Shown in pieces: positions 3,356 through 49,522 of a DNA stretch of 64,000 nucleotides; the stretch's first letter is position 1, and each line of letters opens with the position of its first letter. The notes below the pieces were generated by a model, which made no database searches, had not been told where the DNA came from, and worked only from the letters and a program-made list of their open reading frames with translations. Origin of the DNA: a virus; the IMG/VR virus record IMGVR_UViG_3300028908_000008, positions 1 through 64,000 of that record; one strand, written 5' to 3'. The position numbers were made by a program, and so were the translations under genes.

Positions 3356-4981
3356 ATGAAAATTTTTAAAAATGAAACTAAAATGCTATTGAAACAAATA
3401 AGCAAATTTACAAGTAATATTGAAAAAAAAGAAGATAAAACGCTCCTAAGCGGCACGGAGCTTGAGGTTATAGCAAACAACACACTTAATATCTCAAAAA
3501 ACGGTCTAACGATATCGTATTTTAACCATGAAGTTAAAATATATAAAAGTTTCAAGAATAATCATTATAGCAGTTTAGGTGATGCGACAATCACTATTAA
3601 ATTAACATTTAAAGAATTGAAGGAAATATTGAGCGATAATTTTGAAGTGATTTTAAATAAAGATAGGGATAGTATGATTATAGATACGCCCCGTAAATCA
3701 TGGCAGATAGAGAGGGTACATTTAAGTTTAAGTGTAAATAGTTTGGTCGATGCAAGTAAGAAAAAATATGATATAGGGAATTTTGATATCAATAAATTGA
3801 CAATTTCGGCTATAGCTACTAACCATCCAAAACATGAGCTAAACGGCTTATTATTCGATTTAGAAAATAATTGTTTAGTGTCTACTAATACTAAACAATT
3901 AGTAAAACAAAAAATTAAAAGTGACTCTAATCAAAAATTCATTATTCCTAAAAAGATGGTTTTTGAAACTATGCGGAATATAGCTTTATATGACGATGAT
4001 ATTATAAGTTTTGATAATGAAGATGTTCATTATCAAAGTAGATTAATTAGAGGTAGTTTCCCTAATTATCAAAGGATTGTACCGAATTATAATAGTGATA
4101 GGGGCATAAGTTTCAATCATGAGGATATTAATAAACTAAAACTAAAGAATGAATCGTATGCTATAAAAATAAACGATCGTAAAATATCTTTTATAGAGGA
4201 TATAGAAAAAATAACCTATCCAAATGAAATAAATAGCATGGAGTCAAAATTAAATATAGAGTGTAATTATACTGGCAATGATTCTATAATTTTGGGGCTT
4301 GATGCTACTTTTTTAAAATACGGTATTAAAGATGCTAAAATTTGGATAAATGGAAACAATACACCGTTAATTATATTTAACGATAATATTGAACATATTA
4401 TCATGCCACTTATCCTAAAACATTCAGAATCGTTAAATTACGAGAAAAACATGACCCAAATTAGTCATGACTGGACATGGAATAAGGAGGTAATTAAAAA
4501 AACACTTAAGAGAGTTAATTATAAAAAGCTATATGAAAATAGTATACAAGAGATTGAACTCCTAAAAAATGAGATTGATGCACTAAAAAAAGAGGTTGAA
4601 TCATGGGAAGATAAATTTAAAGAGTGTAATAAAAACAAGTCTAATAACTTTTTTGAATTATTAGATGAAACTTTAAATAAAGAGGTAGATCAAGAGGTAG
4701 ATCATGACCTAAAGGAAGATCAAGAGGAAGATCATGACATAAAGGTAGATCATGACCTAAAGGAAGATCATGACCTAAAGGTAGATCATGACCTAAAGGA
4801 AGATCAAGAGGAAGATCATGACATAAAGGTAGATCATGACCTAAAGGTAGATCATGACCTAAAGGTAGATCATGACCTAAAGGAAGATCAAGAGGAAGAT
4901 CATGACATAAAGGTAGATCATGACCTAAAGGAAGATCAAGAGGAAGATCATGACCTAAAGGTAGATCATGACCCGCCATAA
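3356..4981 (+). CDS. DnaN-like DNA sliding clamp with acidic repeat tail
   Basis: Residues 1-360 resemble the bacterial beta clamp in length and landmarks: ELNGLLFDLE at 161-170, KFIIPKKMVFE near 204 and IRGSFPNYQRIVP at 231-243 match the LNG..E, IPRK and G.FPDYRRVIP segments of DnaN. The core ends with a PLIIFNDNIEHIIMPLI strand pair like the clamp C-terminus. A clamp tethers DNA polymerase to DNA, and the phage also encodes a PolB. Unusually, a coiled coil (about 385-420) and a ~100-residue hydrophilic tail of DHDLK/EDQEE units follow, so the protein is 541 rather than ~366 residues. The tail could bind partners or metal; that is inference. Confidence 0.75.
   Translation: MKIFKNETKMLLKQISKFTSNIEKKEDKTLLSGTELEVIANNTLNISKNGLTISYFNHEVKIYKSFKNNHYSSLGDATITIKLTFKELKEILSDNFEVILNKDRDSMIIDTPRKSWQIERVHLSLSVNSLVDASKKKYDIGNFDINKLTISAIATNHPKHELNGLLFDLENNCLVSTNTKQLVKQKIKSDSNQKFIIPKKMVFETMRNIALYDDDIISFDNEDVHYQSRLIRGSFPNYQRIVPNYNSDRGISFNHEDINKLKLKNESYAIKINDRKISFIEDIEKITYPNEINSMESKLNIECNYTGNDSIILGLDATFLKYGIKDAKIWINGNNTPLIIFNDNIEHIIMPLILKHSESLNYEKNMTQISHDWTWNKEVIKKTLKRVNYKKLYENSIQEIELLKNEIDALKKEVESWEDKFKECNKNKSNNFFELLDETLNKEVDQEVDHDLKEDQEEDHDIKVDHDLKEDHDLKVDHDLKEDQEEDHDIKVDHDLKVDHDLKVDHDLKEDQEEDHDIKVDHDLKEDQEEDHDLKVDHDPP
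4681..4979 (+). repeat. GATC-bearing minisatellite encoding the clamp tail
   Basis: In-frame units of 18 bases (GATCATGACCTAAAGGTA, giving DHDLKV) and 12 bases (GATCAAGAGGAA, giving DQEE) alternate. I count 18 GATC sites spaced 12 or 18 bases apart. The regular pattern leaves the opposite strand open as a shadow frame. Copy number is likely unstable. Confidence 0.9.
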
Positions 4982-5033: not shown

Positions 5034-5522
5034 TTAATCTATTTTAATATCAAATTTTGTAGTTTTATTATCTTCAAAATTTGTAGTAACTTCTAAAAAG
5101 TTTACACAATTACATGATTTTAGAAGTTCAAATTCTGTGACATAAGCACTTAATATTATAGGTTCTATAGCTTTTTTAACGATATATTTATCATCATCAG
5201 TATCTTTATAAAAAGCTTTTATAGAGATAGAACATGGCTTATTGCATTCAACAATAAAATCATCTCCGCAGGTTAGTTTATTATTTAAATGTTTACCAGT
5301 GGTGCTAGAATAAGCTTTAACCGTGTATTGAGGTTCAATTACTTCAAGAACGGGCGTGTGGGGCTTAACAGGTTGATAGACAGGCTGAGGTGTGGATACA
5401 GTTGTATTAGTGCCTACAGTTACATTAGTCTCTATAGCCTCTATAGTACAACAACTATCACTATTGCTACTACATGCACTAAAAAAGATGATTGAAATTA
5501 AAATAAGAGTTTTAAATATCAT
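5034..5522 (-). CDS. Putative lipoprotein
   Basis: Starting at ATG 5522 the N-terminus is MIFKTLILISIIFFSACSSN: short basic start, hydrophobic core, then a lipobox-like FSAC, predicting lipid attachment at Cys17. Two Pro/Thr-rich stretches follow, then a mature domain with several cysteines that may form disulfides in the periplasm. The size is 162 residues. It stands convergent to the clamp gene and is coupled to the 5532 gene upstream. It could alter the infected cell surface (for example superinfection exclusion), but no family is recognised. Confidence 0.65.
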   Translation of the reverse strand: MIFKTLILISIIFFSACSSNSDSCCTIEAIETNVTVGTNTTVSTPQPVYQPVKPHTPVLEVIEPQYTVKAYSSTTGKHLNNKLTCGDDFIVECNKPCSISIKAFYKDTDDDKYIVKKAIEPIILSAYVTEFELLKSCNCVNFLEVTTNFEDNKTTKFDIKID

Positions 5523-5531
5523 GCTCAAACT

Positions 5532-5828
5532 TTAGCTTAAAGATGCTATTAAAAGTTCTTTAGAGCTATAACAATCCTCTATCTTATACATGTTAGCTTG
5601 ATTAGTTCCCATGTAGCGATCAGTGTCCCCGATTAAATGAGTCACCTCGTTATCTTGATTGATAGATATATCAATTCTCTTAATCTCAAATTGTTTAAAC
5701 CTCGGTTTAACATGTGCTATATCGTTAATATTACTTCTAGTTTTATTGCAACAATTAACAACATGTACTATATCACCTATCTTATAAACTAAATCAAATA
5801 ATAAATCGTTATCGGCGTTTAATGGCAT
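5532..5828 (-). CDS. Hypothetical protein
   Basis: This 98-residue soluble protein contains a small beta-barrel-like segment (VYKIGDIVHVVNCCNK) and a Cys-Cys pair. The start at 5828 has AAGGACT upstream. It precedes the lipoprotein gene by 9 bases on the same strand, so the two probably form one operon. The function is unknown. Confidence 0.65.
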   Translation of the reverse strand: MPLNADNDLLFDLVYKIGDIVHVVNCCNKTRSNINDIAHVKPRFKQFEIKRIDISINQDNEVTHLIGDTDRYMGTNQANMYKIEDCYSSKELLIASLS

Positions 5829-5870: not shown

Positions 5871-6138
5871 TTTTGCCTTAATGGGAAGGTCAGTCCAATT
5901 TTGCCTTAATGGGAAGGTCAGTCCAATTTTGCCTTAATGAGAAGGCTAGTCCAATTTTGCCTTAATGGGAAGGTCAGTCCAATTTTGCCTTAATGAGAAG
6001 GCTAGTCCAATTTTGCCTTAATGGGAAGGTCAGTCCAATTTTTGCCTTAATGGGAAGGTCAGTCCAATTTTTGCCTTAATGGGAAGGTCAGTCCAATTTT
6101 TGCCTTAATGGGAAGGTCAGTCCAATTTTTGCCTTAAT
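5871..6138. repeat. Tandem 28-29-bp direct repeat array (candidate iterons)
   Basis: GCCTTAAT recurs at 5875, 5903, 5931, 5959, 5987, 6015, 6044, 6073, 6102 and 6131: nine full units and a partial tenth. The consensus ends AATGGGAAGGTCAGTCCAA. Two units carry the linked change GAGAAGGCTAG for GGGAAGGTCAG, and spacing moves from 28 to 29 bp in the second half through one extra T. There are no spacers, so it is not CRISPR. The site lies before the zinc-module and PrimPol genes, as expected for iterons. Confidence 0.9.
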
Positions 6139-6401: not shown

Positions 6402-6908
6402 GGTTAACTTTTCTTTAAGATTGGAAAGATATACTCACTCTTGCAAGTCAATATTTTTCATGATTTTTTGATTTAAAAAGTTGATTTAGTAGTTTGAAGT
6501 TTGTCACAAAAAAAACTACTAAATCTTTTGCTTTGCTTGACAAACAAAATTTGTACAAGAGCTTGTATTTTAATATGAATTAATCTTTTAGTGATTAATT
6601 ATTGCTTGTATTGGTCGTATAAACACTACTAGATCAAACTACATGCAATTTTCAAAAATTAACTCCTTAAGCCCTTTTTACATGCAATTTTTCAAAATTA
6701 AGCCCTTAAGCCCCTTTTTTTTTACATGGAATTTTTCAAAATTAAGCCCTTAAGCCCCTTTTTTTTTACATGGAATTTTTCAAAATTAAGCCCTTAAGCC
6801 CCTCTTGTCATGCAATTTCCAAAATTAAACCCCTTAAGCCCTCCTATTTAAGTACAGATTAACCTATAATTTAGTATACTTAAGCCCTAAAACGAAAAAG
6901 GATAGATA
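6402..6908. other. Noncoding region between zinc-protein genes
   Basis: No gene is supported here. The first 240 bases are AT-rich with short inverted segments (AGTAGTTT / AAACTACT around 6489-6520). The rest holds five direct repeats, listed separately. The last 50 bases probably contain the promoter for the 6909 gene (TATAAT at 6865-6870). Confidence 0.6.
6640..6845. repeat. Five-copy 39-44-bp direct repeat with TTAAG core
   Basis: Copies beginning ACATG or TCATG start near 6640, 6680, 6724, 6768 and 6808. Each reads roughly CATGCAATTTTTCAAAATT, then AAGCCCTTAAGCCCC and a T tract. The inner GCCCTTAAGCCC is partly palindromic. Copies 3 and 4 are nearly identical, while the outer ones are more diverged, as in an array growing from the middle. 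It is a candidate binding site or origin element. Confidence 0.85.
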
Positions 6909-8189
6909 ATGAGATTATGTGAAAATTGTGGAACTAATATAGATAAGCACCATGCACTTAGAAAAGTGTGTGATGAATGTCAAGGTGAAAAGAAAAGAGA
7001 ATTAGCACGACGCTACTGGGCTAAACTAAAAGAGAATCAAAAACCCCTTTATTGCAAGGAGTGTAATACTTTACTTCCAAAAGATGTAAAGCGTAATACT
7101 CAACGATGTAGCAACTGTAAAACAAAGAGGATAAACGAGCTATCGAGAGAAGCCTATCACAGAAGGATTAAAGCCCAAAGAGTTAAACCCCGATATTGTA
7201 TTGATTGTAAAGTAGAATTAGCAAAAGATATGCACTTCAACGCTATTAGATGTGAAGATTGTAGAATTGCAAAACGAAGAGAGTTAGCAAAAGACTTACG
7301 ATTAATAAAACGAGACAACAAGGTCTCACCACAAAAATATAGAGAATGTAGAGGTGAAAATTGCACTGAAAGTGTAGAGGTAAATAAAAACAGATTTTAT
7401 TGTGATGAATGTAGACGAAAAAGAGCTAATCAATTAAGTAAAGAATTCTACGAAAGACATGTTAAATCAAAACAACCCCAGTATTTATATTGTGTAGATT
7501 GCAAGACACAATTACCAAAAGGTACTCATGTGACTACGCTTAGATGCTATGAGTGTAAAATGGAAAAAAGAAGATTAACTTCTCGTGAATACCATGAGAA
7601 AACTAAGGAAACAAAACAAACTAGAACATGTCAAAGTGAAGGCTGTACAAAACAATTCCTAGTGAATAGAAATAGAATTTATTGTGAAGAGTGTGCAATA
7701 AAAGAAAAGAAAAGAAAGAACAAAATATACGCTCAAAGGAGTAAGGAATTATACAAGGAAAACAGACGATTAAGAGTCTTGCAAGAGATTGAAGAAGGTA
7801 ATAATTTTTGCAAATGTGGTACAAAAATACACCCACGAAAAAATAGATGTGCAGAGTGTGCAGGTCAAACTAAAGAAGTTATTAAAAATAGAAAAGTTCC
7901 TGCATATACAAATAAAAGCACCATGCCCAAAAAACCAACTTGCAAGATTTGTCCAAGAACAAATTTATTTAGTGATGGATTATGCAAACCGTGCTACTCC
8001 AAGCAAATAGAAAAAGATCAAAGCGTTTGGAATGATAGATTTTTGTTACACAAATATAAGAAAATAGCAGATAAAAGCAATCTAACTGTATCTCAAATAG
8101 AGCGTTTTATCAAAGATGGAAAGTTAACAATCCCGAACAATCAAAAAGATGTAAATAGTTTTTTTATCAAACTCTCTCAGCTCCAGTGA
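6909..8189 (+). CDS. Eight-module zinc-ribbon array protein
   Basis: This 426-residue, very basic protein contains eight successive Cys4 modules beginning near residues 4, 49, 97, 147, 195, 241, 301 and 347. Each has a first Cys pair (CKEC, CIDC, CVDC or the longer CRGENC), 13-17 residues, a second pair (CDEC, CSNC, CEDC, CYEC) and a basic helix of the KKRELARRYW type. The last ~50 residues form a non-zinc helical domain. Repeated zinc modules with basic helices suggest binding of repetitive DNA or RNA. It lies 64 bases after one repeat array and upstream of the PrimPol-helicase. I do not know a described family with this architecture. Confidence 0.6.
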   Translation: MRLCENCGTNIDKHHALRKVCDECQGEKKRELARRYWAKLKENQKPLYCKECNTLLPKDVKRNTQRCSNCKTKRINELSREAYHRRIKAQRVKPRYCIDCKVELAKDMHFNAIRCEDCRIAKRRELAKDLRLIKRDNKVSPQKYRECRGENCTESVEVNKNRFYCDECRRKRANQLSKEFYERHVKSKQPQYLYCVDCKTQLPKGTHVTTLRCYECKMEKRRLTSREYHEKTKETKQTRTCQSEGCTKQFLVNRNRIYCEECAIKEKKRKNKIYAQRSKELYKENRRLRVLQEIEEGNNFCKCGTKIHPRKNRCAECAGQTKEVIKNRKVPAYTNKSTMPKKPTCKICPRTNLFSDGLCKPCYSKQIEKDQSVWNDRFLLHKYKKIADKSNLTVSQIERFIKDGKLTIPNNQKDVNSFFIKLSQLQ

Positions 8190-13306: not shown

Positions 13307-13706
13307 TATCTTCACCAACTTTCTTAACTTCAATCATTCCAGATTCACCTAAAAAATCAATAGGTTCACGACACCAATAATTTAATTTGTTTACATCGTT
13401 TATGCACAATGTATATCGTATAGAGTCATACATCACTACCATTTGATCTATAGAACTAAGTTTGCCAATCCCTATAGTCTCATTATGTTCCAAGCCCATT
13501 AAAGGCTTAAGAATCCCTTCTATCTCCTTTTCTACTTTGTCATCAAATATTACATCGTTACCTTTGAAAATATCCCCGTTGATATCTGTCAATTCATTCA
13601 ACATATCGCCGAATTGACCCATTCTAAATCTAAATGTAGCGTTTAATGCCATTTGGATAACTCTTAACTGCTCTTCGTTTAAGTGAATTGTATATTTTTT
13701 CATCAT
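13299..13706 (-). CDS. Conserved-type phage hypothetical protein
   Basis: This 135-residue protein begins with a strand and the segment LNEEQLRVIQMALNATFRFRMGQF. That pattern recurs in many short phage proteins of unknown role, where an N-terminal helix with ALE.Y.R..MGQF is typical. The start overlaps the stop of the upstream methyltransferase (ATGA), so it is translationally coupled to it. The function is unknown. Confidence 0.65.
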   Translation of the reverse strand: MMKKYTIHLNEEQLRVIQMALNATFRFRMGQFGDMLNELTDINGDIFKGNDVIFDDKVEKEIEGILKPLMGLEHNETIGIGKLSSIDQMVVMYDSIRYTLCINDVNKLNYWCREPIDFLGESGMIEVKKVGEDNE

Positions 13707-14686
13707 CTATCCTTCTTTAAAATGTGTAAAAACTCTGTAACCTTGCTATTACCTGCATCTTTTTGACTTTGAAATTTGTCATACTCCCACTCTTTGAAGC
13801 TGTAAGTTCCATACTTTGAAAGTATCTCTTTAATCTCACTACTTTTCAAAAGTCCTTCATTGTTGTAACTTAAAAATATGTGTCTAAAGTGAGCTTTTTT
13901 AATTAACTCTTCTAGTTCGTTTGCTACTCTTTTTTTATAGCACCAGTTGCTTTTTTGATACTCTCTTAAACCAGTTTTACCTTTTGGTGTGAATCTATCA
14001 TACTTCGCAATAGTTGTTAAAAGATGATAGTTAGCTCCATATTGTCGAGTGTTGTATGGTGGGTCTAAATATAGTACATCGCCATGTATATTCTCAATCA
14101 GTTTGTTACTATCTTCATTAAATATCTTAGGTTCTTTACCTTTGCATTTTACATTTAATCCAACTAAATCAAGTTCTTTCAAAGCAGACGCTTTTAGCTT
14201 TTTCAAATATGCTCCAAATACAGAGGCGGTATTTGCTACTTTATCAGCACTTTCAATTAAACTTGCAATTAAATAGTAGTACGAATCCTTATTAATCTCT
14301 TTTCGTCTAAAAAGCCTTTCAATCTCTAATCTAATACTATCTATTTTCATAGCGTTTGATTTAGAGAAATAAAGCCTTCCATCGCTCCCACCTTCTCCAT
14401 AGCTCTCACTAATAAAGCCCTCTACACCTTTAAGATTATTAAGCTTCTTCAAATGCTCTTGCCAACCCAAGGGCTTACAATTTAGTTTGGCTTTTAGTGT
14501 AATATACGAGTAGTACTCCATATCATTAGCGATTAAGTTTTTAAATTCACCTTTCATCACTTCACTAATAGCTCCAGTACCTGCAAATAAATCACAAAAT
14601 ACAAGCTTTTGATCGCTACCAACACTATTAAGAATGATATCCTTAATAGTGTTAGCTAGTTTCTTTTTGCTACCTATGTAGTTCAT
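13703..14686 (-). CDS. D12-class DNA adenine methyltransferase (orphan)
   Basis: This 327-residue enzyme carries MNYIGSKKKLANTI at the N-terminus, the AdoMet-binding FCDLFAGTGAIS (motif I) near 31 and the catalytic YLDPPYNTRQYGANY (motif IV) near 212, the order of the alpha-type D12 family. It should transfer a methyl group to N6 of adenine in a short target. No restriction enzyme gene is adjacent, so it probably protects phage DNA from host restriction or marks its own sites. It is the third gene of a coupled minus-strand operon (15199 to 13133). The target sequence cannot be read from the gene. Confidence 0.88.
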   Translation of the reverse strand: MNYIGSKKKLANTIKDIILNSVGSDQKLVFCDLFAGTGAISEVMKGEFKNLIANDMEYYSYITLKAKLNCKPLGWQEHLKKLNNLKGVEGFISESYGEGGSDGRLYFSKSNAMKIDSIRLEIERLFRRKEINKDSYYYLIASLIESADKVANTASVFGAYLKKLKASALKELDLVGLNVKCKGKEPKIFNEDSNKLIENIHGDVLYLDPPYNTRQYGANYHLLTTIAKYDRFTPKGKTGLREYQKSNWCYKKRVANELEELIKKAHFRHIFLSYNNEGLLKSSEIKEILSKYGTYSFKEWEYDKFQSQKDAGNSKVTEFLHILKKDR

Positions 14687-15359: not shown

Positions 15360-16268
15360 ATGAAATTAGGCATACCATATATGGGAAGCAAAAGAAAAAT
15401 AGCGAAAGATGTTTTAGATAAGTGTTTAGAACTAGCTCCAGAGACTAAATATTTTTATGATTTGTTTGGAGGCGGTGGAGCAATCAGCTTTGAAGCACTT
15501 CAAAGAGACCAAATTCAAGAAGTATTTTACAATGACTTTAATCCACAAATTGCAACACTTATGCAAGGATTAAAAGATAATGCTACCCCTAAAGGGCTTT
15601 ATGAAAAATGGATTAGTAGAGAAGAGTACAAAGATAGACGATATGAAAATTCAATCGAAGGTGCAATTATAGCTACTTGTTGGAGTTTTGGAAACAATCC
15701 TAAAAAGGGGTATTTGTATTCTAAAGCTCTAACACCTCACAAAAAACTTTTACATGAAGTAGTTGTAAATAAGTCTAAAGAATCTTTACTAAAGTTCAAC
15801 AAAGAGTTTAATATTAATATCTCTGAATCTGTTTTGAATATTGAACTAGCGAACAATAGACGGCTAAGAATAGGACGAGAAATCAGACAATTAGCAAAAA
15901 GTAGATTAGGGGAGCTTCGACATTTAGAGTCTTTAAATAAACTCCAGCATTTAACATCTTTAAATAGACTAAAAGAAATATCTATATTTCCAACTATTAC
16001 TAACTTAAGTTATGAAGATGTAAAAATCAATACTCCTTCAAATGAAACATTAATTTATCTCGACCCACCATACGCAAACACAACTAAATACACTGATATT
16101 ATTTGTCATGATGAACTACTTAAATGGATTCAAAAATCGAAGTATAAGATAATAGTAAGTTCTTACGAGTTTGATGGCTTAAAAGAAGTCTACTCTAAAG
16201 ATGTTAAAACTCCAATGAGCTCCACAAACAACTCAAAACGACAAGAAAAGCTTTTTGTAAACTTCTAA
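15360..16268 (+). CDS. Dam-like DNA adenine methyltransferase (orphan)
   Basis: This 302-residue D12 enzyme has PYMGSKRKIA at the N-terminus, YDLFGGGGAIS (AdoMet site) near 33 and LIYLDPPYAN (catalytic) near 234. It ends in SSTNNSKRQEKLFVN, the pattern of phage Dam-type enzymes. A leucine-rich insert (LRHLESLNKLQHLTSLNRL, about 181-199) is also common in that subgroup. It is transcribed away from the first methyltransferase. If its target were GATC, it would modify the 18-site cluster in the clamp gene; that is inference. Confidence 0.88.
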   Translation: MKLGIPYMGSKRKIAKDVLDKCLELAPETKYFYDLFGGGGAISFEALQRDQIQEVFYNDFNPQIATLMQGLKDNATPKGLYEKWISREEYKDRRYENSIEGAIIATCWSFGNNPKKGYLYSKALTPHKKLLHEVVVNKSKESLLKFNKEFNINISESVLNIELANNRRLRIGREIRQLAKSRLGELRHLESLNKLQHLTSLNRLKEISIFPTITNLSYEDVKINTPSNETLIYLDPPYANTTKYTDIICHDELLKWIQKSKYKIIVSSYEFDGLKEVYSKDVKTPMSSTNNSKRQEKLFVNF

Positions 16269-36241: not shown

Positions 36242-37444
36242 ATGAAAAAAGGATCAGTAATGAAAAATGAAAAAGTAACAATAAAAGGTTTTAAGGCATT
36301 TGATAAAGATTTTAAATGTAGAGGTATGCAGTATAAGAGTAACTCAACTTTCAAAGAAGATGTGAAACTGTTAATTTGTGAAGGAGGTTTGCATTTTTGC
36401 GAAATGCCGCTAAATGTTTTTAATTATTATAGTTTTGATAGTAGATTTGCGAAAGTTGAAGCTGTAGGAGATATAGAGAAAGAGGGTGACAAAGTGGCGA
36501 CTAACGAACTAAGAGTTATTGAGGAAATAACTCTTAGTCAAATGTTTAAAGCTCATTTTGACTTAGTGCTAAAAAAAATAAAAACATCTAGTCGAACAAC
36601 AAATACGACAGAGCATAAAGCACATGTAAGCACATCAGAGCATAATGCTCATGCAAACACAACTGGGAACGGAGCATATGCTAATACGGTAGGCTATAAT
36701 GCACATGCCAACACGGCGGGGAATGAAGCACATGCTAACACGGTAGGCTATAATGCCCATGCAAGTACAGCAGAGTATAAATCATATGCCAACACGGCGG
36801 GAAATTATTCACATGCCAACACATCGGGAAGTGATGCCTATGCAAACACATCAGGTTATAATGCCCATGCAAGTGCATTAGGAAGTGAAGCTTATGCTAA
36901 TACATCGGGAAATTATTCACATGCCAACACATCGGGAAATGAAGCACATGCTAACACATCAGGGCATAATGCACATGCAAACGCATCAGGAAAATATGCA
37001 CATGCCAACACGGCGGGAAATTATTCACATGCCAACACATCGGGAAGTGAAGCACATGTCAACACACTCGGAAATTATGCACATGCAAACGCATCAGGAG
37101 ATTATGCACATGTAAACACGGCGGGAAATTATTCACATGCAAACGCATCAGGAGATTATGCACATGTAAACACGGCGGGAGATTATGCACATGCAAACGC
37201 ATCAGGAAATTACGCACATGCAAGTGCATCAGGATACAATACTATTTCGGCATCTGTAGGGAGAAATGGTAAAGCAAAATCCGTAAACGGTTGGATTGTC
37301 ATTGCTGATTGGAGATATGAAGAAGGTAAGTATAATATTAAGCGTATCTATACTGCAAAAGTAGGTGACAAAATACTTGGTGTAAGGATAACCCCTGATA
37401 CTTGGTACTGGTTTGAAGATAGAAAGCTAAAGAGTGAAAAATGA
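36242..37444 (+). CDS. DUF7666 protein with 9-residue beta-solenoid repeats
   Basis: This 400-residue protein: the N-terminal ~105 residues fit DUF7666, with IKGFKAFDKDFKCRGMQY, ICEGGLHFCEMPLNVFNYY and RFAKVEAVGDI. Then about 24 nine-residue units of the type AGNYSHANT or SGSEAHANT (about 118-335) follow, which should stack as a beta solenoid. The last ~60 residues (GWIVIADWRY, ITPDTWYWFED) are the matching C-terminal cap of this family. Its role in phages is unknown. Two start codons have good sites: 36242 (AGGGAACAAA) and 36260 (AAAGGATCAGTA). Confidence 0.75.
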   Translation: MKKGSVMKNEKVTIKGFKAFDKDFKCRGMQYKSNSTFKEDVKLLICEGGLHFCEMPLNVFNYYSFDSRFAKVEAVGDIEKEGDKVATNELRVIEEITLSQMFKAHFDLVLKKIKTSSRTTNTTEHKAHVSTSEHNAHANTTGNGAYANTVGYNAHANTAGNEAHANTVGYNAHASTAEYKSYANTAGNYSHANTSGSDAYANTSGYNAHASALGSEAYANTSGNYSHANTSGNEAHANTSGHNAHANASGKYAHANTAGNYSHANTSGSEAHVNTLGNYAHANASGDYAHVNTAGNYSHANASGDYAHVNTAGDYAHANASGNYAHASASGYNTISASVGRNGKAKSVNGWIVIADWRYEEGKYNIKRIYTAKVGDKILGVRITPDTWYWFEDRKLKSEK

Positions 37445-40976: not shown

Positions 40977-42764
40977 TTATGCCGTTGGAGTTGGAGGATT
41001 ACCTACATCTAAAACGGCGTGAATCGAACCACTAGGTATAGATATTTCCTTATAGTTATAGATAGTTAATTTATCACTTGCGGGGCATTTAACAACTCCT
41101 ACACTACCCACATGAAACCATGACGAGTCATCATCGTTCCTAAAATAAGTTTTTCTAAGATATCTATAATCTATTTGTAGTTCACCTTTTGTGAATTGTA
41201 CTAAAGCTTCAATAGGGTCTATTTTAAACACATGAAAACTCCCATCAGCTAGTTTTGGCTCATAAATATAAAATATTCGTCCTTCAGTGTGTCCATCCCC
41301 CGTCTCATAAACGCCATTTGCTTTGTCTGTAGCGTCTTTACTCCAATAACCTCTTTGAGGGAAAGGAGTATCTAAACCATTCCATAAATCAAAATAGGGG
41401 TCTGTAGCAGGGTCTTTAGATGTTAGCAATACTCTAAATTTATTTGTAGTGGTTGTTCCACCACCTTCATAGGTTTTATAATATCCTCCAAATTGAACAT
41501 GTTTACCACTATTTGCATAAGAAGTCCATTGAATTACAAGATTTTCAGTAAGACTACTATCTATAACACCCCCATCATGGGTTAACATTCCACAACCCTG
41601 ATTTTCTCTAAAAAAGTAAGTTCGATTATCATACTCTCTATTGGATGCGTCCTCTCCAATACAACTAGTTGTGTGACCAGTTTCATCACCTAATCCGAGA
41701 CCAAAAACGCCATCATTTTCACATGAAGATACTTTATTAACAGTTATCATACCCGTTTTAATGGTGCTTGTTTTACCTTTACTATCTCTACACTTGTAAG
41801 CAAAATTATCTGAACCATCATACCCTTTGGTAGGCGTATATTTAAAAGTTCCTGCACTTTCACTAACTGGAGTAATTACGCCATGTAAAGGTTCGGTAGT
41901 AATAGTAACGGTAGTATCATCGCCATCTGCATCTGTACAAGTTAAAGTAAATGCGTTATCTTTAGTGTCTTGATCGACAACAATAGTACCATGGTCATTT
42001 GCTACTGGAGCCTTATTTAATGGTTCGCAATTTAAATCTATAGTTGTAGAGGTTCCATCCTCTTTAGTTATTTTTAGTTGACACTTGTCTGCAACATTCT
42101 CTATCGTCTTTACATTCTTTTTTACTCTAGCATCTATTTTGTCTTGTTCATCTTTTAAAACTTTTCCTTGATTAGCACTTAATGCCGAAGTAGTTGAAGT
42201 ACTAGTAAGATTATTTACTATAGTTGTTGAACTACCTCCAGCTTTTAACTTCACCCATTTACTATCACTTTTATCCCATATATAACGCTCTACATCTGTA
42301 CCGTTTGTATCTACATCGGCGTAATCACCTTCACTATTACCCGTGGTTGGTAGATCGCTTTCTGCTCCATACATTCCCCTAAAGTGCGTTTCATCTAAAT
42401 TTAAAGTGTAATTAGTTCCATCTACTAAAGTAACTTTTACATCACTACTCCCCGCTACTACTTCAAGCTTCTTGATTAAAGTATCTTGAACATCTTTTAA
42501 AGTCTTTCCTTGTTTAGCACTTAATGCTTTGTCTGTATCACTAGAAGTAAGATTGTCTACAACTTCAACCTTTGGTAATGTAACTGTTGTATCGGCTGAA
42601 CCGTCCGTATAACTGATAGTTAGTGTGCTATCTTTCAAAGTTAAATCCTTAACAGCCTTTCCACTACTTCCGCCACTTTTACAACAGTCAGTTAAAGTAA
42701 TCTTGCTTCCATCATCATATTCAACAATAATATCATCGCCGCTTTTAGTCACGCTTTTTACCAT
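40977..42764 (-). CDS. Tail fibre protein, short paralog
   Basis: This is a 595-residue protein. The first ~347 residues are almost identical to the middle of the 42778 protein. They contain LTSSDTDKALSAKQGKTL and LTSTSTTSALSANQGKVL, a motif widespread in phage fibres, and a cadherin-like/Ig beta domain (KAPVANDHGTIVVDQ, FKYTPTKGYDGSDNFAY). The last ~245 residues form a tip domain related to, but diverged from, that of the paralog (REYDNRTYFFREN, IQWTSYANSGKHV). The start has GGAG 7 bases upstream. The tip probably decides host range. Confidence 0.75.
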   Translation of the reverse strand: MVKSVTKSGDDIIVEYDDGSKITLTDCCKSGGSSGKAVKDLTLKDSTLTISYTDGSADTTVTLPKVEVVDNLTSSDTDKALSAKQGKTLKDVQDTLIKKLEVVAGSSDVKVTLVDGTNYTLNLDETHFRGMYGAESDLPTTGNSEGDYADVDTNGTDVERYIWDKSDSKWVKLKAGGSSTTIVNNLTSTSTTSALSANQGKVLKDEQDKIDARVKKNVKTIENVADKCQLKITKEDGTSTTIDLNCEPLNKAPVANDHGTIVVDQDTKDNAFTLTCTDADGDDTTVTITTEPLHGVITPVSESAGTFKYTPTKGYDGSDNFAYKCRDSKGKTSTIKTGMITVNKVSSCENDGVFGLGLGDETGHTTSCIGEDASNREYDNRTYFFRENQGCGMLTHDGGVIDSSLTENLVIQWTSYANSGKHVQFGGYYKTYEGGGTTTTNKFRVLLTSKDPATDPYFDLWNGLDTPFPQRGYWSKDATDKANGVYETGDGHTEGRIFYIYEPKLADGSFHVFKIDPIEALVQFTKGELQIDYRYLRKTYFRNDDDSSWFHVGSVGVVKCPASDKLTIYNYKEISIPSGSIHAVLDVGNPPTPTA

Positions 42765-42774
42765 GTTTTTCTCC
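41722..42774. repeat. 1,053-bp direct repeat, copy A (tail fibre)
   Basis: This segment recurs at 43484-44536, offset 1,762 bp, with only a few substitutions, changing for example I/V, D/N and L/S in the proteins. It runs from the end of the Ig-like domain to the ribosome site GGAGAAAAAC before the start. It is a recent tandem duplication and a hot spot for recombination. Confidence 0.95.
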
Positions 42775-42777
42775 TTA

Positions 42778-45474
42778 TCAAGTTTTTACAGCAGGGTTAC
42801 CAAGGTTAACATGTGTCCATGTACCGCTAGATAATTTAATTTCACTTTGTCCATCATACGAGCCCGTGTCATTATCTGCACATTGATATAGTATTACACC
42901 TTCCACATGATTCCAACAATCATCATCACCCCAATTTTCCATAAATACTTGATCTAATGATAAAATTTTATCATCAGTGTCTGGGAAATATTCTCTAAAT
43001 ACAGCTTCAATATCCAATTTAAACGCATGAAAATCCCCATCTGCTAGTTCAGGGGCATGTGTTGTAGAGTATATATATCTCCCCCAGCTACTCTCCCAGA
43101 TACCATTTTCTTTGTCACTTACACTATCTGAGAAAAACCCTCGTTGTTGTCTTGAGTAGCTATTATCTGCCCACACATCTAGTTTACTTGAAGTGATAGG
43201 GATAGAAGTTAATCCTATATGAATATCTTGTGTCGTGCCATCTACAATACAAGAACATCTACACTCTAACTTAATAGTCTTACCACTGTTACCATAACTA
43301 ATCCATTGAATAACTCTTAAATCAGACCCCATATCTGAACCGTCTACAGATAAGTAGTTTTTACCATTATCTTGTCTAAATAGATAATTATTATTACTAT
43401 ATTCCCTAATGCTTAACTGTTCCCCGCTAATATGAGTAACACCTGCTAAACTCTCCCCATCTGCTATCTCTAGTTTTTGATCGCATGAAGATACTTTATT
43501 AACAGTTATCATACCCGTTTTAATAGGGCTTGTTTTACCTTTACTATCTCTACACTTGTAAGCAAAATTATCTGAACCATCGTACCCCTTAGTTGGCGTA
43601 TATTTAAAAGTTCCTGCACTTTCACTAATTGGAGTAATTACGCCATGTGATGGTTCGGTAGTAATAGTAACAGTAGTATCATCGCCATCTGCATCGGTAC
43701 AAGTTAAAGTAAATGCGTTATCTTTAGTGTCTTGATCGACAACAATAGTACCATGGTCATTTGCTACTGGAGCCTTATTTAATGGTTCGCAATTTAAATC
43801 TATAGTTGTAGAGGTTCCATCCTCTTTAGTTATTTTTAGTTGACACTTGTCTGCAACATTCTCTATCGTCTTTACATTCTTTTTTACTCTAGCATCTATT
43901 TTGTCTTGTTCATCTTTTAAAACTTTTCCTTGATTAGCACTTAATGCCGAAGTAGTTGAAGTACTAGTAAGATTATTTACTATAGTTGTTGAACTACCTC
44001 CAGCTTTTAACTTCACCCATTTACTATCACTTTTATCCCATATATAACGCTCTACATCTGTACCGTTTGTATCTACATCGGCGTAATCACCTTCACTATT
44101 ACCCGTGGTTGGTAGATCGCTTTCTGCTCCATACATTCCCCTAAAGTGCGTTTCATCTAAATTTAAAGTGTAATTAGTTCCATCTACTAAAGTAACTTTT
44201 ACATCACTACTCCCCGCTACTACTTCAAGCTTCTTGATTAAAGTATCTTGAACATCTTTTAAAGTCTTTCCTTGTTTAGCACTTAATGCTTTGTCTGTAT
44301 CACTAGAAGTAAGATTGTCTACAACTTCAACCTTTGGTAATGTAACTGTTGTATCGGCTGAACCGTCCGTATAACTGATAGTTAGTGTACTATCTTTCAA
44401 AGTTATGTTTTTTACAGCCTTTCCACTACTTCCACCACTTTTACAACAATCAGTTAAAGTAATCTTGCTCCCATCATCATATTCAACAACAATATCATCG
44501 CCGCTTTTAGTCACGCTTTTTACCATGTTTTTCTCCAAAATATTTATTTTTTTATTAGTACCGTCTGCATAAGTAGCCGTTAAATCTCCCGTTGTCTTGT
44601 CAAAACTTAAATCTGTTATATAGTTTTTACAAGTGCAAGGGATATCGAACTTACTTGTAGTACCATCAGTATAAGTTATTTCTACTTTATCCCCTGATAT
44701 AGTTGTAGACTTTACTACTTTAGGTAGTGCTAATTCTAAAGTAGTGTCATCACTATATGTGAGTTTTAGCTTATTATTAGCTTCGTCTACAGATACATTT
44801 TTTACAACAGTTCCAACAGTTGCACCTGTTGCTACATCTATATCACTATAAGCACCATCGCACTTAGTTACTCTTAGTTTGCCATCTACTAAAGCAACAG
44901 AGTTAACACCTTCACTACAAGAATTATTACCACCACCTCCACCACTAGGTAGGCTTGTTTTAGCTACTGTATTATCTGTATAAGTTACTTCTAATACTTC
45001 ACCTTTTAGTTTTACATCTTTAACAGTTTTGGTATTACTTCCACCACTACCAGTATTAATTTGTTTAGTAGTTCCATCTGTATAAGTAATAGTAGTCGTG
45101 CCATTGCTTGTTACTAAATCTTCTACTACTTTATCATCACTACCACACCCACTTAATTGAATCTCTTGAGTAGTATTATCGCTTTTTGTTAGCTTTAACT
45201 TACAGCCACTTAGAGCTTCAAGACTTTTAATGCCCGTACCACCACTAGACGGTATTGCTAAAGTTTCACTTGTACCATCTGTATATAGTATCTTTAGTTT
45301 GTCTCCATCAAGTTGTATAGCACGAACTCTTTTCTCGTTAGTACCTCCATTTATTTCATTGTCTAACTCTTCAAAATATCGTTTCAAGTCAAGATGATAT
45401 TGTTGTTGTGCTTCACACCTCTCTTGTGCCGTCATTAGACTCGCACAATTAGGGTGATTTGGAAAATCTGCCAT
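42778..45474 (-). CDS. Tail fibre protein, long paralog
   Basis: ATG 45474 follows AAGGACGACTCAA, giving 898 residues; a start 36 bases upstream lacks a site. The N-terminal ~310 residues hold repeated short beta units built around YTDGT-x-x-x-L-x-LP (for example ITYTDGTTKQ, VTYTDNTVAKT, LTYSDDTTLEL). The middle is the segment shared with the short paralog, and the last ~225 residues are a different tip (REYSNNNYLFRQD, IQWISYGNSGKT). The shared segment begins at an internal Met with its ribosome site preserved. A TATACT -10 box lies upstream of the gene. Confidence 0.75.
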   Translation of the reverse strand: MADFPNHPNCASLMTAQERCEAQQQYHLDLKRYFEELDNEINGGTNEKRVRAIQLDGDKLKILYTDGTSETLAIPSSGGTGIKSLEALSGCKLKLTKSDNTTQEIQLSGCGSDDKVVEDLVTSNGTTTITYTDGTTKQINTGSGGSNTKTVKDVKLKGEVLEVTYTDNTVAKTSLPSGGGGGNNSCSEGVNSVALVDGKLRVTKCDGAYSDIDVATGATVGTVVKNVSVDEANNKLKLTYSDDTTLELALPKVVKSTTISGDKVEITYTDGTTSKFDIPCTCKNYITDLSFDKTTGDLTATYADGTNKKINILEKNMVKSVTKSGDDIVVEYDDGSKITLTDCCKSGGSSGKAVKNITLKDSTLTISYTDGSADTTVTLPKVEVVDNLTSSDTDKALSAKQGKTLKDVQDTLIKKLEVVAGSSDVKVTLVDGTNYTLNLDETHFRGMYGAESDLPTTGNSEGDYADVDTNGTDVERYIWDKSDSKWVKLKAGGSSTTIVNNLTSTSTTSALSANQGKVLKDEQDKIDARVKKNVKTIENVADKCQLKITKEDGTSTTIDLNCEPLNKAPVANDHGTIVVDQDTKDNAFTLTCTDADGDDTTVTITTEPSHGVITPISESAGTFKYTPTKGYDGSDNFAYKCRDSKGKTSPIKTGMITVNKVSSCDQKLEIADGESLAGVTHISGEQLSIREYSNNNYLFRQDNGKNYLSVDGSDMGSDLRVIQWISYGNSGKTIKLECRCSCIVDGTTQDIHIGLTSIPITSSKLDVWADNSYSRQQRGFFSDSVSDKENGIWESSWGRYIYSTTHAPELADGDFHAFKLDIEAVFREYFPDTDDKILSLDQVFMENWGDDDCWNHVEGVILYQCADNDTGSYDGQSEIKLSSGTWTHVNLGNPAVKT
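43484..44536. repeat. 1,053-bp direct repeat, copy B (tail fibre)
   Basis: This copy lies inside the long paralog. Its outer boundaries are sharp: upstream coding (NILEKN) and the tip domain on either side have no close match in copy A, although the tips are distant homologs. Confidence 0.95.
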
Positions 45475-45616
45475 TTGAGTCGTCCTTATCTTTTTTGAAA
45501 AGTATATCAAATTCGTGAAACTCTAAAATTAATACAAGTTTAAGATTAAATTCACTATACTACCGTATATATAAAAAAGATAGTTTATATATAACTTAAA
45601 TAAATAAAGGATTATT

Positions 45617-46707: not shown

Positions 46708-47406
46708 ATGGCAAATGATAAAGAAAACAAAGTATATAAAATACAAGGTACTATAGGTTTTAGAAATTTAACTACTCCATCAGCTCCAAAAGATGACAAG
46801 TTGACTAAAGAGGAGTTGGCAGAAAGAGCAAAGTATAATGTGGTTATATTAATTGATGATAAGAAGCCAAGAGATTTGAAAGATTTAGAAAAAGAGTTTC
46901 TAAAACTAAAGAAGAAAAAGAAGATAAGAGGTGATCTTCCAAAAAAAGACACACCTTTTTATAAGGGTTTACAAGACCCTAATATAGATGAGGATGGTGA
47001 TTTAGTTAATAGATTTTTTCTAAAGGCATCTAGCAAGTTTAGTCCAAAAGCAGGTTATATAAAGGGTGGTAAATGGCACTCTGTAGATATAGAGGATCAA
47101 GATGCACTTTTTACACAAGGTAGTAAGGTGGTTATCTATGTGACCCTATGGTCTGCAAAGGATCATGATGTGATCGGTGCTAATCTAAACGCTATTCAAT
47201 TTCTATCAGCCGAAGGGGAAGCATGGGTTAAAGGTCATGCTCAAATTTCAGACGACGAAATGATTGATGAAGATGCTGATATTGATGAAGATGATATTAT
47301 AAATAATAAATCTAAAAAATCGGATAGTGAAAAACCTAAAAAAGATAAGAAGTCTAAAAAAGACAAAAAGGATAAGAAGGCTAAGAAGGATAAAAAGAAA
47401 AAATAG
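46708..47406 (+). CDS. DUF2815 single-strand DNA-binding protein
   Basis: This is a 232-residue protein. The first ~175 residues have the OB-fold-like pattern of phage DUF2815 proteins (IGFRNLTTPSAPKDD, KYNVVILIDDK, VVIYVTLWSAKD, GANLNAIQFLSAEGE). The end is unusual: an acidic stretch (DDEMIDEDADIDEDD) is followed by a ~40-residue run of Lys/Asp (KKDKKSKKDKKDKK). SSB proteins normally end acidic to attract partners; a polylysine end would rather bind DNA or the membrane. Confidence 0.82.
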   Translation: MANDKENKVYKIQGTIGFRNLTTPSAPKDDKLTKEELAERAKYNVVILIDDKKPRDLKDLEKEFLKLKKKKKIRGDLPKKDTPFYKGLQDPNIDEDGDLVNRFFLKASSKFSPKAGYIKGGKWHSVDIEDQDALFTQGSKVVIYVTLWSAKDHDVIGANLNAIQFLSAEGEAWVKGHAQISDDEMIDEDADIDEDDIINNKSKKSDSEKPKKDKKSKKDKKDKKAKKDKKKK

Positions 47407-47426: not shown

Positions 47427-47470
47427 CACCCTCCACACACTCCCACAAAAAATAAAATCAAGGATTGAAA

Positions 47471-49522
47471 ATGTTTGAAAAGTCCGATGTATCATTTGAT
47501 ATCGAAATGTATCAAAATTACTTCTTAGTAGGTTTTCAAGATGTAGTTACTAAAAACTATAAGCAGTTTGAAGTAAAAAAATCTTCAAAAGCACTAACTA
47601 AAAAACAGATAAGTGAAATAAAAAACATTATTAGCAAAAATAGATTAATAGGTTTTAATTGCATAAAATATGATATACCGATATTACTACTCGCTTTAGA
47701 GGGTAGAGATGTTAAATATCTCTATAACGCTAGTACGCTTATTATCAAAGAGAATTTTAGTATATATAAAACTTCTCAAATGTATGACTTAGATCGAGAG
47801 TTAAAGCAAGTGAATCAAGTAGATTTATCTACAATCGACATTGCAAGAGGGGCGTTTATAAGCCTTAAACAATATGGAGCAAGGATTAATGCTCCTACTA
47901 TCCAAGATTTACCTATAAAATGGGATTCAAAACTCTCTAAAGAGGACATGAAAGAGATAAAAACATATAATCTAAATGATTTAGACTTAACTACTCAATT
48001 ATATGAGTATGGGAAAGCAAATATAGAACTAAGGGAGTTTTTATCGAAAAAATATGAAGTGAATCTAACAAGTTCACAAGGTGCAAAAATTGCAGAAACT
48101 ATTATTAGTAGTGAATTTGCAAAAAGAGGCAAGTATCTGAAGCGGTCGGAATTAGAAGCAGGGGAAGAGATTAGATATAAAGCTCCTAAACATATAAAGT
48201 TTAGAGATAAATCCCTAAAACAACTATTGAAGAACTTTAAAAATACACCCCTGATAATAAATGAATCGGGAAATATAATTAAACCTGATTTTTTAAAAGA
48301 CCCTATAACAGTGAACAAAACCTCTTATACTGTAGGACTAGGTGGATTACACGCTATTATTAAAAATAAAGGAATAGTTCCGAAAAAAGATGAGGTTCTA
48401 AATCAGCCCGATGTTGGGAGTTATTATCCAAGTATGATACTAGCTTATGGCTTTAAAGCTAAGGGCATGGGAGAACTTTTCGATAAGATTTATAGAGGTT
48501 TGGTTGCAGATAGGTTTAAATGGAAAGTGTTAGATTCCAAACTAAAACACCTCAAAAATGATGATTGGAAAACTGCTATGTTAAACAATAACGGTTTGAA
48601 ACTAGTGCTAAATGCACTTTTTGGTACTTATGGAAATAAATGGTTTAAAACTTATGCTCCTGATTTGTTAATTCAAATAACTATTACTGGTCAGCTTAAT
48701 TTGTTAATGCTTATTGAATGGTTAGAAGATGCAGGGATAAAAGTAAAAAGTGCTAATACCGATTCAGTTTTAATACTTCACAAGAAAAAAGATTCTAAAA
48801 AAGCTAAAAAAATACTAAAGAAATGGGAGAAGGTTACTTCTATGAGTTTAGAAGATGATTATATTGATGCCTTTTTTGCAAGAGATATAAATTCTTATAT
48901 GTACACTAAAAAGGGTGGCTATGATGGTATAGCATACTTCAAAAAATTCAAAGATGTATCCAAAAATCTTGAATACCCAATAGTATATAAGGCTATAGGT
49001 GATTTTATATCCAAAGATATCCCAATAGAAGAGACTATCGGTGAATGTAACGATATAACAGAGTTTGTATCCACTAGAAAAAGCACTACTGGAGCGACTT
49101 ACAAAGGTAACTTAATAGGTAAAGCTTTAAGATTCTATTATTGCGATGATGATGATGCACTATTTAACATTATAACTGATGAGAAAATAGAAAACTACAA
49201 TGAACGATATAGTATTTATGAAGAAAAATTAAAAATCTATAATGATGAAGTTTCTAAATGGGAAGAAGCTCTATTAAAATGGAAAGAAACTAAAGAGGGT
49301 AAAAGACCTCTTAAGCCTAAAAAAATATATCCTCCAACAAAACCAAATGAAACAAAAGTATCAAAATCAGACTTTGCTTATCCATGTTTGAAATTACCTC
49401 ATAATATCCCTGAAAATTTAGATAGAGAATTTTATGTAAAACTAGCATATAAGCATATTAAAGAGATTGGATGGACTAAAAAACTACAAAAGAGGATCAT
49501 TAAAAATGCTCAAAAAAAGTAA
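47471..49522 (+). CDS. Family B DNA polymerase with proofreading domain
   Basis: ATG 47471 follows AAGGATTGAAA, giving 683 residues. The exonuclease motifs are intact: SFDIE (Asp10, Glu12), GFNCIKYD near 63 and YNLNDLDLT near 167. Polymerase motifs follow in order: DVGSYYPSM (about 314), KLVLNALFGTYGNK (about 377) and NTDSVLI (about 429). It copies the phage genome and can proofread. It occupies the place that a family A polymerase often takes in DUF2800-DUF2815 cassettes. The last ~100 residues are helical and may be a thumb or partner site. The gene overlaps the helicase gene by 17 bases. Confidence 0.88.
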   Translation: MFEKSDVSFDIEMYQNYFLVGFQDVVTKNYKQFEVKKSSKALTKKQISEIKNIISKNRLIGFNCIKYDIPILLLALEGRDVKYLYNASTLIIKENFSIYKTSQMYDLDRELKQVNQVDLSTIDIARGAFISLKQYGARINAPTIQDLPIKWDSKLSKEDMKEIKTYNLNDLDLTTQLYEYGKANIELREFLSKKYEVNLTSSQGAKIAETIISSEFAKRGKYLKRSELEAGEEIRYKAPKHIKFRDKSLKQLLKNFKNTPLIINESGNIIKPDFLKDPITVNKTSYTVGLGGLHAIIKNKGIVPKKDEVLNQPDVGSYYPSMILAYGFKAKGMGELFDKIYRGLVADRFKWKVLDSKLKHLKNDDWKTAMLNNNGLKLVLNALFGTYGNKWFKTYAPDLLIQITITGQLNLLMLIEWLEDAGIKVKSANTDSVLILHKKKDSKKAKKILKKWEKVTSMSLEDDYIDAFFARDINSYMYTKKGGYDGIAYFKKFKDVSKNLEYPIVYKAIGDFISKDIPIEETIGECNDITEFVSTRKSTTGATYKGNLIGKALRFYYCDDDDALFNIITDEKIENYNERYSIYEEKLKIYNDEVSKWEEALLKWKETKEGKRPLKPKKIYPPTKPNETKVSKSDFAYPCLKLPHNIPENLDREFYVKLAYKHIKEIGWTKKLQKRIIKNAQKK

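Follow-up and report, generated by a model that had tools for sequence, protein, structure and literature searches.

The open reading frame at positions 3356-4981 (plus strand, 541 aa) raises the question of whether it encodes a sliding clamp and what a long repetitive tail does at the end of such a protein. The window analyzed was a stretch of 64,000 nucleotides from a 69,263 bp IMG/VR virus record with the gene set of a tailed phage. The frame was confirmed as a real open frame with the boundaries given in the first-pass annotation, which had been made from the sequence and its open reading frames and had proposed a sliding clamp with DnaN landmarks, a coiled coil, and a repetitive acidic tail.

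Clamp core and predicted fold

Residues 1-354 (3356-4417, plus strand) are a divergent DnaN-type beta clamp fold of three tandem domains ending in I-M-P-L-I-L, as identified by sequence profiles and AlphaFold2. The Pfam model PF02767 scored 32.5 bits on the core (E=1e-7; cut-off 27) and phrog_947 from PHROGs scored 44 bits (E=2.7e-11); the outer-domain Pfam models were weaker, with 11.2 bits for PF00712 and no match for PF02768. A clamp profile constructed from 86 other clamps, leaving out the protein's own sequence, matched residues 7-352 with E=2e-32. AlphaFold2, run with an alignment of 87 rows, gave a model in which residues 1-355 superposed on PDB beta clamps (Z 26.5, 331 aligned residues, rmsd 3.0) with all three clamp domains in a single chain and 13-20% identity in the structure alignment. 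The predicted fold had been set beforehand as the test able to overturn the clamp assignment, and the three domains in residues 1-355 upheld it, in agreement with PF02767, phrog_947, and the clamp profile. The nearest solved structure by sequence was the Stenotrophomonas DnaN 7RZM (E=2e-9) and the top Foldseek match was a Helicobacter clamp. A clamp of the PCNA or T4 gp45 type was ruled out, as these have two domains per chain compared to three here.

The canonical MPxRL C-terminus has its counterpart in the I-M-P-L-I-L of residues 349-354, which is in register and lies in a strand reading IIMPLIL. Pocket residues were largely kept (L162, T177, L182, P236, R240, I241, M350, P351, and L352), with substitutions of G174-H175-R176 by T-K-Q and of R365 by I. 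The core had a net charge of +2, the upper extreme of the -21 to +2 spanned by 87 clamps. We infer that the clamp forms the usual head-to-tail dimer ring serving the phage's own family B DNA polymerase (PolB). Ring formation and use of the pocket are putative, since the dimer-interface positions were poorly conserved in the sequence comparison and G-H-R reads T-K-Q.

Anatomy of the C-terminal extension

The canonical clamp end is followed by 187 residues, the extension starting exactly after it. A linker (residues 355-388; 4418-4519, plus strand), in which AlphaFold2 placed a low confidence helix at residues 358-384, leads into a predicted long heptad helix (residues 389-426; 4520-4633, plus strand) recognized from the AlphaFold2 model, its heptad a/d pattern, and a 21-bp tandem period in the DNA. 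The central part of this helix reached a pLDDT of ~85-93 as a single chain and its a/d bias gave a shuffle p of ~0.001, consistent with the coiled coil that had been claimed earlier. The acidic repeat tail (~residues 446-541; 4680-4981, plus strand) corresponds to a tandem array in the DNA and is predicted to be disordered, with low pLDDT. Its last 91 residues (451-541) include 42 Asp/Glu, 12 His, and 12 Lys for a net charge of -30, compared to ~-32 for the whole protein. The ~100 residues of simple repeats described in the first-pass annotation stood as a long acidic tail, with its length corrected to ~96 residues (446-541) within a total extension of ~187. Searches of the extension against PHROGs and Pfam returned weak coiled-coil matches only.

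Occurrence of extensions among clamps

Residues beyond the clamp core numbered 0-5 in 90 phage or viral clamps and 0-3 in 80 bacterial clamps, counted on profile-matched open frames that include near-identical entries. A canonical clamp ends within ~5 residues of MPxR[LV], as did these 170 comparison clamps (0-5 residues), whereas 187 residues follow in the phage protein. In two phylum-wide samples of bacterial DnaN, 390 of the 399 genomes searched had a match and ~300 matches were listed; among the matches listed, the 15 frames of at least 444 aa were all inspected and end 0-2 residues past the core, shorter frames having no room for such an extension. The long bacterial frames were rejected as precedents since their surplus length lay upstream of the core. 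Comparison clamps were found via conserved core motifs and represent part of all clamps, being drawn from the matches listed out of a larger number.

No similar extension was found among the several hundred related phage, viral, and bacterial clamps surveyed. Close relatives of either the core or the extension were absent from IMG/VR, GTDB genomes, and plasmids, matches in the phage records were all below 30% identity, and the repeat DNA pattern was absent from IMG/VR. The earlier statement that no clamp of like design had been described was borne out by the surveyed clamps and the open-access literature, although such a clamp may exist elsewhere.

The repeat array at the DNA level

The tail is built from the units VDHDLK, EDHDLK, EDHDIK, and EDQE. 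The corresponding DNA units are 18 and 12 bp long, contain one GATC each, and are arranged in tandem over 4680-4981 (84-bp register, 98% match, score 481). The clamp frame alone is open in the forward direction and is kept along the array, as almost every unit carries a stop in each of the two remaining forward frames and the unit lengths are 12 and 18 bp; one antisense frame is also open. Differences between the ~17 units (V/E, L/I, and an exchange of HDLK for QE) are all nonsynonymous with zero synonymous differences, which suggests that the array is young, by recent expansion, or has been homogenized. The exact repeat sequence of such an array is no evidence of selection and the sequence of the tail may be recent and unselected.

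Two other readings were considered and rejected. An assembly artefact was discounted since no exact repeat is longer than 83 bp, a length that fits within a typical short read, so that the array can be assembled, while its copy number may vary. A programmed -1 frameshift in the linker that would yield a tail-less clamp was unsupported: a perfect AAGGAGGT followed by A7 occurs at 4484-4502, but the downstream RNA structure was no better than in shuffles (z -0.25) and A7 runs are frequent, with 40 in the window.

Genomic context and candidate partners

The clamp gene closes a run of plus-strand genes and converges on minus-strand genes (5034-5828). The replication genes comprise PolB, a gp2.5-like single-stranded DNA-binding protein (SSB), DUF2800, a SNF2-type helicase, and a DUF5906/PriCT primase, with portal, capsid, and TerL representing structure and packaging. 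A Campylobacterota host is plausible given TerL relatives that include Nitratiruptor phages, a GC content of ~30%, and the Helicobacter clamp as top Foldseek match. The presumed clamp client is PolB (47465-49522, plus strand; phrog_1252, E=1.6e-130), encoded 43 kb away, and related phages regularly pair PolB with a clamp. The SSB (46708-47406, plus strand; phrog_112) has a C-terminal acidic patch and, after it, a lysine-rich end with a net charge of +13 over the last 30 residues, where the usual tip is acidic. Similar basic ends occur in the records L103, L107, and L142, the SSBs of some relatives are lysine-rich at the end as well, and lysine- or arginine-rich SSB ends were also present in phage records that yielded no clamp, so these ends are not tied to an acidic clamp tail. 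A charge pairing between the acidic clamp tail and the basic SSB end may be regarded as a lead only.

Repeats and duplications were observed elsewhere in the window. Non-coding tandem arrays at 5871-6138 (28 bp x 9.4) and 6640-6841 (44 bp x 4.8) lie just upstream of the genes for a Cys-rich protein and the primase, and constitute a candidate replication origin or regulatory region. The 426-aa Cys-rich protein (6909-8189) adjoins the primase, matches nothing in Pfam or PHROGs, and consists of CxxC...CxxC modules that resemble zinc ribbons and recur along the chain. A DUF7666 protein (36242-37444) contains ~22 copies of a 27-bp repeat encoding HANTSGN-like units, and two neighboring structural proteins of 595 and 910 aa (40977-45510) share a long near-identical segment, apparently from a recent duplication.

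Possible roles of the tail

From this fold and anatomy we infer a mechanism and tentatively favor a PolB-replisome clamp whose acidic tail is an electrostatic arm. The C-terminal residues of beta clamps line the peptide-binding pocket. As the chain end (M-P-L) does so here, the extension starts beside the pocket on the polymerase side, and the tails of both protomers would project from the polymerase-facing side of the ring. A flexible arm carrying a charge of ~-30 per protomer would need no sequence motifs to act. It could retain basic replisome proteins in the vicinity of the clamp (either PolB or the SSB via its lysine-rich end) and prevent the unusually neutral core from binding random DNA, and its action would be similar to that of the T7 gp2.5 and Enc34 ORF6 acidic tails. 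Since charge rather than sequence would matter, the number of repeats could drift. The charge-based arm is favored because clamp-binding motifs are absent from the repeats and are not enriched in the phage proteome. Counted against it are the zero synonymous differences among the repeats, as expected of a recent expansion without long selection, and the failure to find a relative with a similar tail in the databases searched. The fuller proposal, that an acidic and repeat-length-tunable arm on the polymerase-facing side uses charge, in place of pocket-binding peptides, to bring in replisome proteins, is unlikely.

Functionless expansion is nearly as likely as the electrostatic arm. Loss of a stop codon or a gene fusion, followed by expansion of the 12/18-bp repeats through slippage or recombination, would have left a passenger that was tolerated as the ring was undisturbed and that was filtered only for keeping the frame. 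The ~17 units without synonymous differences, a genome rich in other coding and non-coding tandem arrays, and the lack of any relative sharing the tail in the databases searched are all consistent with such a passenger; residues 367-541 may also derive from a formerly separate gene, with M367 (~4454) positioned after a weak GAG-type ribosome site. However, several hundred other clamps without an extension indicate that additions at this C-terminus are not tolerated in general, the tail has an acidic composition throughout, and the helix with the heptad pattern ahead of the repeat is not part of it and looks structured in the model. That helix could itself be the working part, pairing with its counterpart or with another phage protein through residues 389-426 to clasp the ring or dock a partner, with the acidic repeat merely solubilizing. 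Such a role accords with the heptad bias (p ~0.001) and a pLDDT of up to 93, but acidic and lysine-rich helices often resemble coiled coils, the prediction is of a single chain, and no partner was identified; this explanation is improbable.

Less probable still are two readings in which the repeat is valued for its DNA or for its individual residues. The lambda O gene contains iterons, and the array here might likewise act as DNA, either as iterons or as a Dam-type GATC array for the control of initiation or methylation, with the peptide as a by-product. Its 300 bp hold 18 of the 101 GATC sites in the window, the 18-bp unit is iteron-sized, and the phage encodes two D12-class adenine methyltransferases (13703-14686 and 15360-16268, on opposite strands). 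Against this, the GATC comes with the unit and its count is explained by amplification, all unit lengths are multiples of three, and the non-coding arrays at 5871-6138 and 6640-6841 are nearer the primase and better origin candidates. The first-pass annotation had instead suggested that the tail multiplies binding sites for clamp partners or binds metal ions via His and Asp, in line with the 42 Asp/Glu and 12 His counted over the final 91 residues. Neither proposal gained support, since the tail, with its 13 DHD triplets, has no QLxLF-like motif and no metal-site fold. Clamp-binding peptides in the phage proteins occurred in chance numbers without an excess across the proteome, and the matches in PolB and a nuclease fell within motifs of their own folds.

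The C-terminal extension is, judged by sequence, a variant design of the known beta clamp that was not seen in the clamps surveyed. A natural clamp with 187 appended residues tests how far the pocket-lining C-terminal end can be modified. A functional tail would represent motif-free tethering of partners and could serve as a model for clamp engineering, and a non-functional tail would mean that fast-evolving repeats are tolerated even on a hub protein.

Comparison with known clamps and tails

Bacterial DnaN proteins from E. coli (2POL), H. pylori (5FRQ), and S. maltophilia (7RZM) share the three-domain fold, the hydrophobic and P/M residues of the pocket core, and the MPx motif with the phage clamp but differ in their 13-20% identity, a GHR pocket compared to TKQ here, a diverged dimer interface, and the lack of a 187-residue C-terminal surplus. 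The phrog_947 proteins from Rhizobium phage 16-3 (p081) and Caulobacter phage Sansa are likewise phage-borne DnaN-type clamps, although they terminate at MPMRV/MPLRL, unlike the extended clamp. The 461-aa Sansa clamp was rejected as a precedent, its extra 82 residues being N-terminal. Clamps of the Queuovirinae/Beaumontvirinae (MiCath, pVco-14, and BUCT626) are paired with the same PolB family, but are ~320 aa long, adjoin PolB rather than lying 43 kb away, and have no C-terminal extension. A 199-aa apparent mini-clamp was also observed beside PolB on another viral contig (L183:1447-2046), with a clamp-like central part and an MPGRF-type end, and is too short for three domains.

Long flexible C-terminal arms on a clamp fold have parallels outside bacteria and their phages. 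Rad9 of the 9-1-1 clamp combines the clamp fold with a long flexible C-terminal arm that binds partners, and the clamp UL44 of HCMV has a disordered C-terminal region binding a partner (PMC3499415). Both are offered as analogies with no homology claimed, as they are PCNA-type folds from eukaryotes or a eukaryotic virus, with tails unlike the repeat found here. Acidic disordered C-terminal tails are also found on replisome proteins of phages, where T7 gp2.5 has one implicated in binding the polymerase and primase-helicase, and Enc34 ORF6 has one that tunes DNA specificity (PMC5686142). These are single-stranded DNA-binding proteins with short tails, whereas the protein described here is a clamp with a long one.
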